DNA of 40,307 nucleotides, taken from NCBI GenBank assembly GCA_023261445.1, contig JAHFOX010000001.1, positions 1 through 40,307 on the forward strand. The letters run 5' to 3'. Shown here piece after piece: positions 1-9,273 of the stretch. Source of the stretch: Planctomycetota bacterium. Its GTDB lineage: Bacteria; Planctomycetota; Brocadiia; Brocadiales; Brocadiaceae. Positions within the stretch are counted from its first letter, which is position 1; every line of letters starts with the position of its first letter. A program made the translations under genes and the position numbers. Under the pieces are notes generated by a model. That model saw nothing but the letters and a program-made list of their open reading frames with translations, had not been told where the DNA came from and ran no database searches.

Positions 1-425
1 ATAGTCATCACAGTGTTACTACTGGAGTAAGCGCCAGAAGTTACTGTTCCAACTCGGCGTGCTGTACTAGAACCAGAAATGCCTTGAGACGTTGATGCTG
101 TTACTGTGACAGTGCCGGAACTAACATAACTAAGAAACGTTTGGGCATTTGGATCAAATTTCAATCCAGAGGGCGCCGTAAGCGTGATTGACGAACCGGC
201 GATCAGGTCTCCTGTATCATCAAGCGTGATCGCCACTGCCCCTACCAATTGCACCCCAGTAGAAGTCCCATTTGGAATAACCACTTGAGTACTGCTAACC
301 GCAACAGAAGGGTCTACTACTGTGGTATCAGCAAACGTGCTGATACGCCCTAAGCCGCTGATGGCAGATACTGCCACAAGGGCGAAGAGCAAAACCATAC
401 ATTTACTTCTTATAAATTTATACAT
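1..425 (-). CDS. Secreted surface protein, N-terminal part (runs off the window)
   Basis: Reading leftwards from an ATG at 425, the frame stays open for 141 codons to the window edge. Residues 1 to about 33 form a signal peptide: a basic start with KFIRSK, a hydrophobic core MVLLFALVAVSAISGLG, and a likely cleavage site after STFA. The mature part is rich in Thr, Ser, Val and Gly and poor in Cys, with beta-strand-like segments, as in S-layer, cell-surface or adhesin domains. A ribosome-binding site (AAAAGGAG, 434-441) lies 8 bases before the ATG. A strong promoter and a long leader with mini-ORFs precede it. I do not recognise the family. An S-layer or other abundant envelope protein is an inference from composition and from the promoter. 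The C-terminal remainder is outside the window. Confidence 0.75.
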   Translation of the reverse strand, partial: MYKFIRSKCMVLLFALVAVSAISGLGRISTFADTTVVDPSVAVSSTQVVIPNGTSTGVQLVGAVAITLDDTGDLIAGSSITLTAPSGLKFDPNAQTFLSYVSSGTVTVTASTSQGISGSSTARRVGTVTSGAYSSSNTVMT

Positions 426-465
426 TCTTTAATCTCCTTTTCCATAAATCTCCCAATTTAAAAAC

Positions 466-552
466 CTAAATGTTTGTAATTCTCGGATACAACGTTTCAT
501 CTGTTTCTTCGATGATGTCAGACGAGGACGCCCAACCTGCTTTTACTTTTAT
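466..552 (-). CDS. Possible 28-residue peptide with an AUA start
   Basis: A very strong Shine-Dalgarno sequence (GAGGAGGTG, 560-568) lies 7 bases before an ATA codon at 552. That codon opens a 28-residue frame ending in TAG at 466, just before the ribosome-binding site of the surface-protein gene. The peptide reads roughly KVKAGWASSSDIIEETDETL and then YPRITNI; it is acidic in the middle. AUA is a very rare initiator, so this could equally be a regulatory leader, a decayed gene or an accident. GTG inside the Shine-Dalgarno sequence opens an alternative 14-codon frame in another phase. I do not recognise the peptide. Confidence 0.25.
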   Translation of the reverse strand: MKVKAGWASSSDIIEETDETLYPRITNI

Positions 553-648
553 AGCTTTTCACCTCCTCTTTCAAAGATTTCAGATGAGATTGTATAGGGA
601 AAAAATACATTAAAAACTTTTTTAGTAAACACACAAGAACGAATATCT

Positions 649-687
649 TTAAAATCTCCCAAATCGCCTTCGACCCCTTTTCACCAT
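649..687 (-). other. Possible 12-codon leader peptide (MVKRGRRRFGRF)
   Basis: An extended Shine-Dalgarno sequence (AAGGAGGTG, 693-701) sits 5 bases before an ATG at 687, followed by 12 codons and TAA. The product would be extremely basic, with six Arg or Lys in 12 residues. It lies in the same transcript as the mini-ORFs on either side. It may be a translated leader or a decoy ribosome-binding site. The length is too small to claim a functional protein. Confidence 0.2.
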
Positions 688-745
688 TCCTTCACCTCCT
701 TCTTGAATAAACGGCAGACCAGAGATGGGAAAACCAAGGGTTGAT

Positions 746-853
746 TTACTGCAAAGTCCGCTTGTTCACGCCTGTATCCAACAACTGCTTTCTGATACAA
801 AAAAACGCCAACAACCACACCGCCCCTTGCAGGAGAACCAAGTTTTTTCCCGT
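746..853 (-). CDS. Possible 35-residue membrane peptide with an ACG start
   Basis: AAAGGAGG (860-867) lies 6 bases before an ACG codon at 853. This opens a 35-codon frame ending in TAA at 746. The product has a hydrophobic stretch (LVLLQGAVWLLAFFCI) followed by a basic, polar tail, like a small single-pass membrane peptide. It is the first mini-ORF after the promoter at 933-961. ACG initiation is rare, and the next plausible start is TTG at codon 5. The well-placed ribosome-binding site is the main support. No homologue is recognised. Confidence 0.25.
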   Translation of the reverse strand, partial: TGKNLVLLQGAVWLLAFFCIRKQLLDTGVNKRTLQ

Positions 854-932
854 AATTTTCCTCCTTTCTTGATGAATAGTTTATAATGATTTACACTGAA
901 AATTGTTATAAATGCTACGTTGCAGTTGGTGG

Positions 933-961
933 AATATAACACGCAAGCAACATCTAGTCAA
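933..961 (-). promoter_or_regulatory. Sigma-70-type promoter for the surface-protein transcript
   Basis: On the minus strand TTGACT (961-956) is followed by a 17-base spacer and TATATT (938-933), close to the sigma-70 consensus with ideal spacing. The predicted start is near 926. The leader to the surface-protein ATG at 425 would then be about 500 bases and would include all the mini-ORFs. No other gene on this strand could use it. Confidence 0.6.
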
Positions 962-1140
962 TAAAAAAATTAAAATTTTTTAAACTTTTCGCGGCAAATA
1001 AAATACAGCAAAATACACAAGGGTTTTTTCATGTATGTGCCGATGGTTATTCGTTAAACATAAACCACTAATAATTTTGCAGCATTATACACTTGTGTTT
1101 CCATAAGCGCAAGAAATATTTTATCTAAATTCTGCAAATA

Positions 1141-1352: not shown

Positions 1353-1620
1353 GCAGTGAGGGTTTTTCGTCAGAAAAGCGATGTAACAGCGTGCGGTGGC
1401 GGCTTTCTAACCCGTCCCCACAATTAATCCGTGTCCAAATGCGGTTTTTTAGGTGTCATTTATTTTTGGTTTGACTTCTATTGCCCTTCTTGTTATTATC
1501 CCTGCCTTAAATGTCCGGGAAATTTCAAGGCTGCCACAAAGCCGCCGAAGGCAGCCCAATTTGATTTCACCGCACACTTGAAACCAAGCGAAATTCGTGC
1601 TTCCGCATACCCTAAAAATT

Positions 1621-3012
1621 ATGAAACAAACTACGGCCAAGATAGAGAATCCCGCACGAAACGCAGCAGTTTCCACGTTAGATAAAGATTTTGTTTTAGC
1701 CCGATTTCTTTCTGAAATTAAAAAAACTGTTACTGCGCAGCAATTTGACGCCTGGTTTCCCGACCTCAGAATCCTGTCTATTACCGACAATGCCCTCACG
1801 TTTGCCGTACCAAACAACTTTATAAGGGAGTGGCTCCGCAGTAATTACACAGACCTTTTCGCCAGTATTGCATATAAGGTGCTGAACTCTTCGCGCGAAG
1901 TGGTTCTTACTACCGAAAGCGAGATTCTCGGGCCAATACCCTCGCCATCTTTTTTCAACAGGAAGGATGTTTCCGATAGCAATGGAGCGCTGTTGGCATT
2001 TGATAAACCGCCAGCAAACAAACACTATGGTTTTGAAAATTTTATAGTTGGGTCGTGCAATAGGCTGGCGCATGCGGCTTCCGTCGCGGTCTCTGAGGCC
2101 CCCGGGCAGGCATATAATCCCCTGTTCATACATGGCGCCTCGGGATTGGGGAAAACGCATCTTCTGCACGCGATAAGCAACTGCTTGCTTTCGAGATATG
2201 ATATGAATGTGCTCTATTTGCCCTGCAATCAGTTTATAAACCACTACGTTTCTACGATTCGGTTTAATGACTGGGAACCCTTTAGAAATTTTTACAAAAA
2301 TGTAGATGCGCTTTTGTTGGACGACGTTCAGTTTTTCGAAAACGTGCAAGGCTGCAGGGAAGAATTCTTTCATATCTTTAATATGCTTTACAACGCCAAA
2401 AAGCAAATCGTGATTACCAGTGATTGTCCGCCGGACTCTTTGAGCACAATAGAAGACCGCCTTATCTCGCGGTTTAAGTGGGGGCTTTTATGCAGTATAG
2501 ACAGCCCTGATATAGAAACACGCATCGCTATCTTGGGGAAGAAGGCTGGGCTGCTTGGTTTTGACCTTCCTTATGAAATCGCTAAATTTACAGCGGGAAA
2601 TATACCCGGAAACATCCGCGAACTGGAGGGCTTTATCATAAGATTGTATAAAGAAACAATGACTGTACGGTGTAATATTACTCTTGATACTGTCAGACGA
2701 GTAATCCAGGAATTAGCAAGCGGCAAAAGAACTGTTAGTATAGAGGCCATTCTAAAGGCCGTCTCTGAGAAATTTGATATAGGCGTAACAAAACTTCAAT
2801 CAAAATGCAGAGAGAGAAGCCTTATTTTACCCAGACAAATAGTAATGTACCTCTCAAGGAAGTTAACTAATATGTCGCTTACTGAAATCGGGGGATACAT
2901 CGGCGGAAGAGATCACTCCACAGTAATTCATGCGGATGAGAAAATAAGAAAATTATCAAAGAAAGATAAAAATCTTTTATTTGTTTTACAAAGACTAGAA
3001 AGTAAGTTATAA
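1621..3012 (+). CDS. dnaA: Chromosomal replication initiator protein DnaA
   Basis: The 463-residue product is the AAA+ ATPase that binds DnaA boxes and opens the origin. Domain I is about residues 22-95. The AAA+ core shows Walker A (GASGLGKTH, 172-180), Walker B (LLLDDVQF, 231-238), an arginine-finger region (EDRLISRFKWGL) and sensor II (GNIRELEG). Domain IV carries the DnaA signature GGRDHSTVIHA from 428. I chose the ATG at 1621; a GTG eight codons upstream is possible, and neither has a clear ribosome-binding site. Length is normal for the family. It begins a cluster with dnaN, dciA and gyrB on the same strand, which supports chromosomal dnaA. Domain II (about 96-130) is short. Confidence 0.97.
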   Translation: MKQTTAKIENPARNAAVSTLDKDFVLARFLSEIKKTVTAQQFDAWFPDLRILSITDNALTFAVPNNFIREWLRSNYTDLFASIAYKVLNSSREVVLTTESEILGPIPSPSFFNRKDVSDSNGALLAFDKPPANKHYGFENFIVGSCNRLAHAASVAVSEAPGQAYNPLFIHGASGLGKTHLLHAISNCLLSRYDMNVLYLPCNQFINHYVSTIRFNDWEPFRNFYKNVDALLLDDVQFFENVQGCREEFFHIFNMLYNAKKQIVITSDCPPDSLSTIEDRLISRFKWGLLCSIDSPDIETRIAILGKKAGLLGFDLPYEIAKFTAGNIPGNIRELEGFIIRLYKETMTVRCNITLDTVRRVIQELASGKRTVSIEAILKAVSEKFDIGVTKLQSKCRERSLILPRQIVMYLSRKLTNMSLTEIGGYIGGRDHSTVIHADEKIRKLSKKDKNLLFVLQRLESKL

Positions 3013-7828: not shown

Positions 7829-9273
7829 CGCTTGTAAGAACTTTTTTACACACATGCAAAAAACACGCCCAGAAAACCGCGGTTATTGATCAAAGCGGAG
7901 AAACTACCTACGACAATCTTCTGCGGGAAGCCCAGGATTATACGGCGAAACTGTTGTCGGAAGAAACAGGCGGCAGCATAGGGATACTTCTTCCAAATTG
8001 CAAGGAGTTTGTAGCAACTTTTTATGGAATCCTGATGGCGGGGAAGACGCCTGTGCCGCTGAATTTCCTGCTCTCGCCAGAGCAACTGATGTATGTAATC
8101 AAGAATGCGGATATAAGCACCATCTTTACAAATAGCCTGTTCGGGCCGCAGATAAAAAATCACATAAGACATACATTTTCTGTAGAAGGTAAACGTTCAC
8201 ACATATCGCTTGAAGAGTCAAAAATTAGATTGGGGGACGCAGAGGACATGGCTGCCTTGCTTTATACCTCCGGCACTAGTGCCAACCCCAAAGGCGTGAT
8301 TTTAACGCACAAGAATTTTATAAGTAATCTGGAGGGGTGCATATACGCTTTTAATTTTACCGAAAGAGATATTTTGCTTGGCATCTTACCGCTTTTTCAT
8401 ACATACGCATTGACTACCACATTGATACTGCCAATTTCCATGGGCGCAACGACGGTCTATCTTGTGCGATTTTCAGCGCCAAAGGTATTGGAAACAATCG
8501 AAAAATATAAAATTACATCTTTGTTTGCCATTCCTTCTATGTATAGGGTGCTTCTAAAAACTGCCCAATCGGCAAAACACGACATAAGCACGTTGAGAAT
8601 TTGTACATCGGGCGGAGAATTACTGCCGGGCGATGTTCTCGATGCATTCAATAGAACATTTCCAGTTCCTTTAACAGAGGGGTACGGACTGACAGAATCT
8701 ACGGCAATAGTTTCTGTGAATTTGCCAAAAAAGTGCAAACCGGGCAGTATTGGTCCTCCCTTGAGGAATCTCGAAGTAAAGATAATGGACGATGACGGCA
8801 AACGCCTGCCTTTAAACAAGGAAGGGGAAATGTGGGTGAGGGGGCCAAACGTAATGAAGGGATATTATAAACTGCCAAAGGAAACAGCAGAGACCATTAC
8901 GTCGGACGGCTGGCTAAAAACCGGAGATTATGGCAGGCTGGACGAGGAAGGATTCCTATGGATTACGGGAAGAAAAAAGGAGCTGATTATCATTAGTGGA
9001 GAAAACGTATCTCCGAACGAGATTGAACGCGTCATCAGCGGACACGAAAAGATTTTTGAGGTTGCCGTTATTGGAGTGCCAGACAAGGTTCGGGGCGAAG
9101 TTCCTAAGGCATTTATAGCATTGCGTGAAAATATGACATGCAGTGAAGAAGAAATGAAAGACTACTGTACGCAGAGACTGCCCCATTACAAAGTTCCCAG
9201 ATATTTTGAATTCCTCAAAGAACTACCCCACGGCCCGACTGGCAAGGTACTGAAAAGGGCATTGAAAAAATAG
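7825..9273 (+). CDS. AMP-dependent acyl-CoA synthetase/ligase
   Basis: The 482-residue product belongs to the ANL adenylating family, which activates a carboxylate as acyl-AMP and transfers it to CoA or a carrier. The P-loop-like motif is YTSGTSANPKG (147-157), with Ser-Ala in place of the usual Thr-Gly. Further motifs are EGYGLTES, the hinge motif GWLKTGDYGRLDEEGFLWITG followed by RKKELIIISGENVSP, and a C-terminal PTGKVLKR that supplies the catalytic Lys. The length is shorter than typical long-chain fatty acyl-CoA ligases (about 550) and nearer to medium-chain or carrier-loading members, so the substrate is open. It converges on folC with a 36-base gap. Confidence 0.88.
   Translation: MTLVRTFLHTCKKHAQKTAVIDQSGETTYDNLLREAQDYTAKLLSEETGGSIGILLPNCKEFVATFYGILMAGKTPVPLNFLLSPEQLMYVIKNADISTIFTNSLFGPQIKNHIRHTFSVEGKRSHISLEESKIRLGDAEDMAALLYTSGTSANPKGVILTHKNFISNLEGCIYAFNFTERDILLGILPLFHTYALTTTLILPISMGATTVYLVRFSAPKVLETIEKYKITSLFAIPSMYRVLLKTAQSAKHDISTLRICTSGGELLPGDVLDAFNRTFPVPLTEGYGLTESTAIVSVNLPKKCKPGSIGPPLRNLEVKIMDDDGKRLPLNKEGEMWVRGPNVMKGYYKLPKETAETITSDGWLKTGDYGRLDEEGFLWITGRKKELIIISGENVSPNEIERVISGHEKIFEVAVIGVPDKVRGEVPKAFIALRENMTCSEEEMKDYCTQRLPHYKVPRYFEFLKELPHGPTGKVLKRALKK

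Follow-up and report, generated by a model that had tools for sequence, protein, structure and literature searches.

A candidate conserved structured leader with a non-initiating Shine-Dalgarno-like sequence upstream of S-layer genes in anammox bacteria

The window analyzed here is the whole 40,307-nucleotide stretch of contig JAHFOX010000001.1 (positions 1 to 40,307) from the Planctomycetota genome assembly GCA_023261445.1, and it lies at the contig start. Pfam searches place dnaA (1597..3012, plus strand; Bac_DnaA, E 8e-61), dnaN, and gyrB in a rightward run, and a surface gene runs leftward from position 425. The gene is truncated at the contig end, leaving the N-terminal 141 amino acids of a secreted S-layer-type surface protein (3..425, minus strand). 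All features of the leader of this gene described below are on the minus strand. Between dnaA and the leader, at ∼1150-1250, there are repeated intergenic phrases, ATCTGTGTCC and ATCTGCNT; repeat-like insertions resembling them enlarge the leaders of two related genomes, G015 (L065) and G020 (L035).

The original prediction had placed a strong promoter and four Shine-Dalgarno (SD)-like sites upstream of the surface gene, and re-reading of the sequence found the promoter and all four sites at the predicted positions. The promoter consists of an UP-like A/T tract joined to the -35 hexamer (TTTAAAAAATTTTAATTTTTTTA-TTGACT, 956..984, with TTGACT at 961-956), a spacer of 17 nt, and an extended -10 element (TGT-TATATT, 933..941, with TATATT at 938-933), giving a predicted transcript start at ∼926. 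Both elements were recognized by a promoter scan and by leader alignments, in which the UP-like tract and -35 hexamer are nearly invariant. The scan returned 6 promoter-like sites in the window versus 5.7 in shuffled sequence, so the match alone is unexceptional. What makes the promoter convincing is that its motif, TTTTTT(T/A)RTTGAC-N18-TATATT, is conserved 5' of the matching leader in relatives, and the promoter call is thus upheld by conservation, not by the window-only score.

The SD-like sites are SD1 (AGAAAGGAGG, 860..869, with AAAGGAGG at 867-860), SD2 (AAGGAGGTGA, 692..701, with AAGGAGGTG at 701-693), SD3 (GAGGAGGTG, 560..568), and SD4 (AAAAGGAG, 434..441), the last being the surface gene's own ribosome-binding site, 8 nt before the ATG at 425. 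SD1 and SD2 are each a 10-nt complement of the 16S rRNA tail, which reads GGATCACCTCCTTTCT (four genomes read). In the 507-nt leader, four sites match the complement of this tail over at least 7 nt, versus a mean of 0.53 in dinucleotide shuffles (P 0.0005), and three do so over at least 8 nt, versus 0.15. This excess over chance agrees with the earlier claim that such sites would be rare in random DNA. The same claim had stressed their regular spacing, in which no meaning was found; successive sites are separated by 166, 133, and 127 nt.

A DNA search of 59 relatives with the leader matched many members of the window's family in two blocks, at 68-82% identity. A covariance model, R1, detected the leader in 19 of the 33 genomes of the family, including 4 that were outside its building set, with one good core copy per genome and a leader length of ∼300-550 nt. 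No R1 match was found in other families of the order or, outside the window's family, among 392 sampled genomes of the phylum. A named pattern scan returned 17 stretches, of which 12 were taken as anammox relatives and 5, from unrelated taxa, as chance; the carriers include Ca. Brocadia pituitae and several Ca. Brocadia MAGs, with other Planctomycetota besides, and Kuenenia is probably also among them. These named members are the basis on which the family is called Brocadiaceae here. None of 4227 Rfam families, riboswitches included, matched the leader, and a literature search on leaders or transcript starts in anammox bacteria, covering few subscription papers, returned nothing on this element. 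The search of related genomes for the same leader 5' of surface genes, which the original prediction had proposed as a check, thus found it conserved in 19 genomes rather than absent. We regard it as very probable that the region is a real, conserved, structured S-layer leader of anammox bacteria.

The SD1 motif GAAAGGAGG is present in all 19 leaders and is complementary to the 16S tail over 9-11 nt in each of them. As judged by sequence, no reading frame of more than three codons starts 3-14 nt after SD1 in any of the 19; in three of them SD1 is trailed by a start codon with an immediate stop. SD1 usually lies 64-77 nt past the -10 element (farther in at least three leaders), and in the window it is ∼58 nt into the predicted transcript, not at the 5' end. 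SD2 is complementary to the 16S tail over 8-13 nt in 14 of the 19 leaders, and mini-ORFs of 4-16 codons follow it in 14 of the genomes, a partly different set. The possible mini-ORF of the window (MVKRGRRRFGRF, 649..687) has 12 codons at a spacing of 7 nt from SD2. The start codon, spacing, frame, length, and sequence of the mini-ORFs are all unconserved in relatives, and five genomes have no start there. Mini-ORFs as the conserved feature of the leader were ruled out by this lack of conservation after SD1 and SD2. The suggestion that the sites belong to translation-coupled mini-ORFs is therefore contradicted at the first site and finds no conservation at the second.

Across the carriers the elements follow a set order: UP-like tract, TTGAC, extended TATATT, usually 64-77 nt, AGAAAGGAGG, ∼8 nt, two hairpins that we label P1 and P2, and AUUGGGAG. 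A spacer, often containing TTTTTAAAGAATAG, and then the true ribosome-binding site lie 3' of AUUGGGAG. P1 (727..851), which begins ∼75 nt past the predicted transcript start in the window, is a long hairpin of the form GGGAAAA...UUCUCCUGC / UGCAGUAAAUCAA...UUUUCCC, whose outer helix is GGGAAAA/UUUUCCC and whose middle helix is UUGAUU/AAUCAA, with a variable tip of 0 to ∼250 nt. In two genomes, G001 and G018, the interior of P1 is deleted and the hairpin is reduced to its outer helix, with SD1 retained. P2 (673..726, AUCUCU...GGGGU) carries SD2 within its 3' arm. Immediately 3' of P2 is the conserved element GAUUUGGGAGAU (654..668), near-invariant in alignments, for which relatives read AUUGGGAG.

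P1 is supported by duplex energies, co-variation of its arms, and the covariance model, and P2 by pairing and co-varying arms. Relative to shuffled sequences, the duplex z-score of P1 is -2.6 in the window and as low as -7.2 in relatives, and it is -2.5 or lower in 15 of 16 long forms (G019 not yet included). Native arms pair better than arms swapped between genomes, both for P1 (P 0.0002 with 16 genomes; 0.003 with ten divergent ones) and for P2 (P 0.002; 0.004 with ten divergent ones), P values that can be inflated by shared ancestry. RNAalifold applied to a MAFFT alignment gave a weak consensus of -3.5 kcal/mol, and column-wise covariation on MAFFT or model alignments was modest, weaker than in the arm-swap tests, because P1 is misaligned in the Kuenenia-like genomes; the alignment-free duplex and arm-swap tests were used for this reason. 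Folded by itself, the window core has an unremarkable minimum free energy (z -0.94), and base-pair probabilities over the whole leader are ambiguous. Free folding of several genomes, the window included, left SD1 partly paired with the CUCC of P1, and folding models indicate that the AUUGGGAG element may pair with UUUUCCC in place of P1. An alternative UUUCCC/GGGAGA helix, 92% paired, was set aside; it shows no covariation and is broken where CCC is changed to CCA or GCC.

The surface protein of the window was found in only 3 others of the 59 relatives, and the leader is thus more widespread than the protein. In most of the 19 genomes the leader is followed by a gene for a secreted protein of 1430-1630 amino acids starting MKRPK. 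We identify this protein as the S-layer protein of the Kuenenia stuttgartiensis kustd1514 type (PMC5088730, PMC7709395) from its size, its N terminus, and the 1591-amino acid copy in the Kuenenia-like genome G010, the likeness to kustd1514 being one of size and N terminus, not of sequence comparison. The window and G032 differ in having a different surface gene behind the leader, encoding a protein that starts MYKF, and no gene of the MKRPK type was found in either genome. The window protein shares 41% identity with the protein that occupies the S-layer position in G032 (L031 2241-5795). This G032 protein has a CarboxypepD_reg domain, like the usual S-layer protein, and lies between the leader and a pseudopilin-like gene, as the usual protein does in other genomes. 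From the matching position behind the same leader we conclude that the surface gene has been exchanged behind a constant leader. In two further cases the S-layer gene is apparently split by a frameshift near the N terminus (L038 2319-2700 in G031; L061/L068, G015:C85).

It is this replacement of the usual S-layer gene in the window's lineage that makes a gene remnant possible at SD3. The idea that the SD-like sites are remnants of deleted genes does not hold for SD1 and SD2; at SD3 the resemblance to the start of the usual S-layer gene is slight (P 0.01-0.7), and SD3 as a relic of that start is unconvincing. The window has no well-placed start codon after SD3, which has a counterpart in one relative only, G032. 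In that genome a frame of ∼40 codons begins at the counterpart, AAAGGAGGTGTATG, in the interval that separates the leader core from the surface gene (L031 ∼2090-2240).

A dnaA-like ORF is the divergent neighbor of the leader in at least 16 of the 19 genomes, as scored by eye with the Pfam test made on the window's copy only. In G010, a single contig of 4.41 Mb, the leader and the 1591-amino acid S-layer gene lie away from dnaA and are still together. PMC7709395 locates the S-layer gene of Kuenenia at 0.91 Mb in CSTR1, counting from ori dnaA, and ranks the S-layer protein 8th in the CSTR1 proteome. In the parts of PMC7709395 and PMC5088730 covered by a text search there was nothing on the leader of the S-layer gene. 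G007 carries a second copy of the promoter, P1, and flanks before an unrelated gene (L034 1985-2240, G007:C167). In this duplicate SD1 reads AAAGAAGG, everything 3' of UUUUCCC has diverged, and P2 and the GGGAG element are lost. As a natural control, the comparison of the two G007 copies suggests that SD1, P2, and GGGAG are constrained only before an S-layer gene. It is the S-layer gene that the leader accompanies, not dnaA and not any one protein sequence.

Neither the leader nor the MKRPK protein is present in the genus of G006 and G017. In these genomes AGAAAGGAGG is found ∼90-100 nt before the gene for a 1530-amino acid secreted protein with CBM9 and sortilin-like repeats (L042 ∼8330-8440, L039 ∼9000-9100). 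The genome of the window has 27 GAAAGGAGG sites versus 30 for the reversed pattern, and the motif is thus not enriched genome-wide; about half of the 27 are ordinary ribosome-binding sites and several are inside genes. Five further leaders in this genome (L084/L083, G000:C57:16157 and 16058; L073, C24:5415; L069, C8:14520; L076, C29:242; L094, C117:18514) carry GAAAGGAGG ∼95-190 nt 5' of the start codon, in addition to a second, normally spaced SD. The genes behind them are mostly for secreted, membrane, or transport proteins, and the stabilizer idea discussed below possibly extends to them.

Long untranslated leaders also precede S-layer genes of other bacteria; compared by description, the anammox leader is likewise long and untranslated, with a motif that is confined to one anammox family among the genomes searched. 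In the ompA 5'-untranslated region of Escherichia coli, an organism with RNase E, a structured leader and a ribosome-binding element protect the mRNA for an abundant envelope protein, with a hairpin at the very 5' end and the gene's own SD in the leader. The anammox hairpins differ in lying 3' of a separate non-initiating SD, and the likeness to ompA is one of description. A third comparison is with the STAB-SD leaders of Bacillus thuringiensis cry3A and other Gram-positive genes, long 5' leaders likewise containing a non-initiating SD-like sequence complementary to 16S rRNA (PMC4113751). The cry3A STAB-SD is defined by such a sequence in the long leader of an abundant protein, and the bound 30S subunit blocks RNase J1 (PMC4113751). 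The cry3A gene, too, encodes a massively made, crystal-forming protein. The anammox case differs in that SD1 sits within the predicted transcript, ∼58 nt from its start, in combination with two conserved hairpins, and in that the hosts are Planctomycetota with RNase E/G and no recognizable RNase J.

The most likely reading, to which we give about even odds, is that the leader is an mRNA 5' stabilizer working like the Bacillus STAB-SD. The strong promoter, with its UP-like tract and extended -10 element, would start the transcript near 926, and a 30S subunit would dock on SD1, GAAAGGAGG, ∼55-75 nt into the transcript, without starting translation. Directly after SD1 the putative transcript has P1, P2 with the second SD, and the fixed AUUGGGAG, and, beyond a spacer, the surface gene's actual ribosome-binding site. 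The docked 30S subunit and the hairpins would together shield the leader from RNase E/G-type attack, and an mRNA of great length and abundance would be protected from decay in its 5' part. With its message so protected, a slow-growing cell could make its surface coat from long-lived messages. A stabilizing leader is the best supported of the three readings that the original prediction had offered; conservation of the leader is in keeping with it, and stabilization itself is what we propose. RNase E/G was found in all 8 genomes examined, and no TIGR00649 (RNase J) match above the cut-off was found in 8 genomes. The known STAB-SD mechanism therefore cannot be copied exactly, and we do not file the leader as a STAB-SD system. 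Further points count against a stabilizer: SD1 is set back ∼58 nt from the predicted 5' end, the modeled SD1/CUCC pairing would hinder 30S docking unless it were regulated, and a plain stabilizer does not obviously need the fixed AUUGGGAG element.

The reading that we rank second, tentatively and as a doubtful one, makes the leader a regulatory RNA switch. SD1-CUCC and UUUCCC-GGGAGA would form in one state, and P1 would form with SD1 free in the other, the state being chosen by a ligand, a protein, or ribosome supply and so setting S-layer synthesis. RNAalifold and the minimum-energy fold of the window both choose the alternative pairings, UUUCCC/GGGAGA is highly paired, and AUUGGGAG is fixed without an obvious partner in P1 or P2. 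However, the pairs of the switch show no covariation and are missing from some genomes, which is why it ranks below the stabilizer: UUUCCC/GGGAGA is disrupted by the CCA and GCC changes, several Brocadia genomes no longer have the SD1/CUCC pairing, and two genomes keep SD1 with the interior of P1 deleted. In addition, no terminator-like platform was recognized, and no Rfam riboswitch matched. A broader proposal, which we consider improbable, is a new regulatory RNA class in which SD1 would toggle between a docking form and CUCC pairing and in this way sense unoccupied 30S subunits (or some other ligand), so that S-layer synthesis follows the supply of ribosomes, with GAAAGGAGG leaders as a general anammox strategy for envelope genes.

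A translated leader, in which mini-ORFs driven by SD1 and SD2 would couple to or regulate the surface gene, could explain the ATG 7 nt after SD2 and its 12 codons in the window and the M(N/K)RGRS-like mini-ORFs after SD2 in several relatives. We think it quite improbable in view of the missing frames of more than three codons after SD1 (0 of 19), the five genomes with no start after SD2, and the variable start codon, spacing, frame, and length elsewhere; moreover, the letters conserved after SD2 double as hairpin letters. The leader also has many GGA motifs (in SD1, GGGAAAA, SD2, and UUGGGAG), and csrA genes were found in 8 of 11 genomes, as would suit control of S-layer mRNA translation or stability by CsrA bound to these repeats. 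Yet three draft genomes, those of the window (G000, 91% complete), its congener G001, and G007, yielded no csrA, and all three retain SD1 and at least the outer P1 helix. That no csrA turned up in the window's genus, as far as drafts can show, argues against a conserved partnership with CsrA, and we hold this explanation to be very unlikely. Equally hard to credit is an independent small RNA that is transcribed from the leader promoter and acts at other sites, the S-layer gene just happening to lie 3' of it. The compact structured core with its single good copy per genome would fit such an RNA, but the core was relocated together with the S-layer gene in the Kuenenia-like genome, the G007 copy without an S-layer gene has decayed, and no terminator was recognized between core and gene.

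The literature covered gave nothing on how expression of anammox S-layer proteins is set. S-layer proteins are among the most abundant proteins in anammox bacteria, and these organisms account for a large share of both nitrogen cycling and present-day wastewater treatment. The leader provides a specific element for mutational testing in reporters, and it accounts for the exchange of one surface gene for another within a single expression cassette. With its full-length but non-initiating SD inside a conserved, structured leader, this element would carry the STAB-SD idea beyond the Gram-positive bacteria and into a lineage without a recognizable RNase J.
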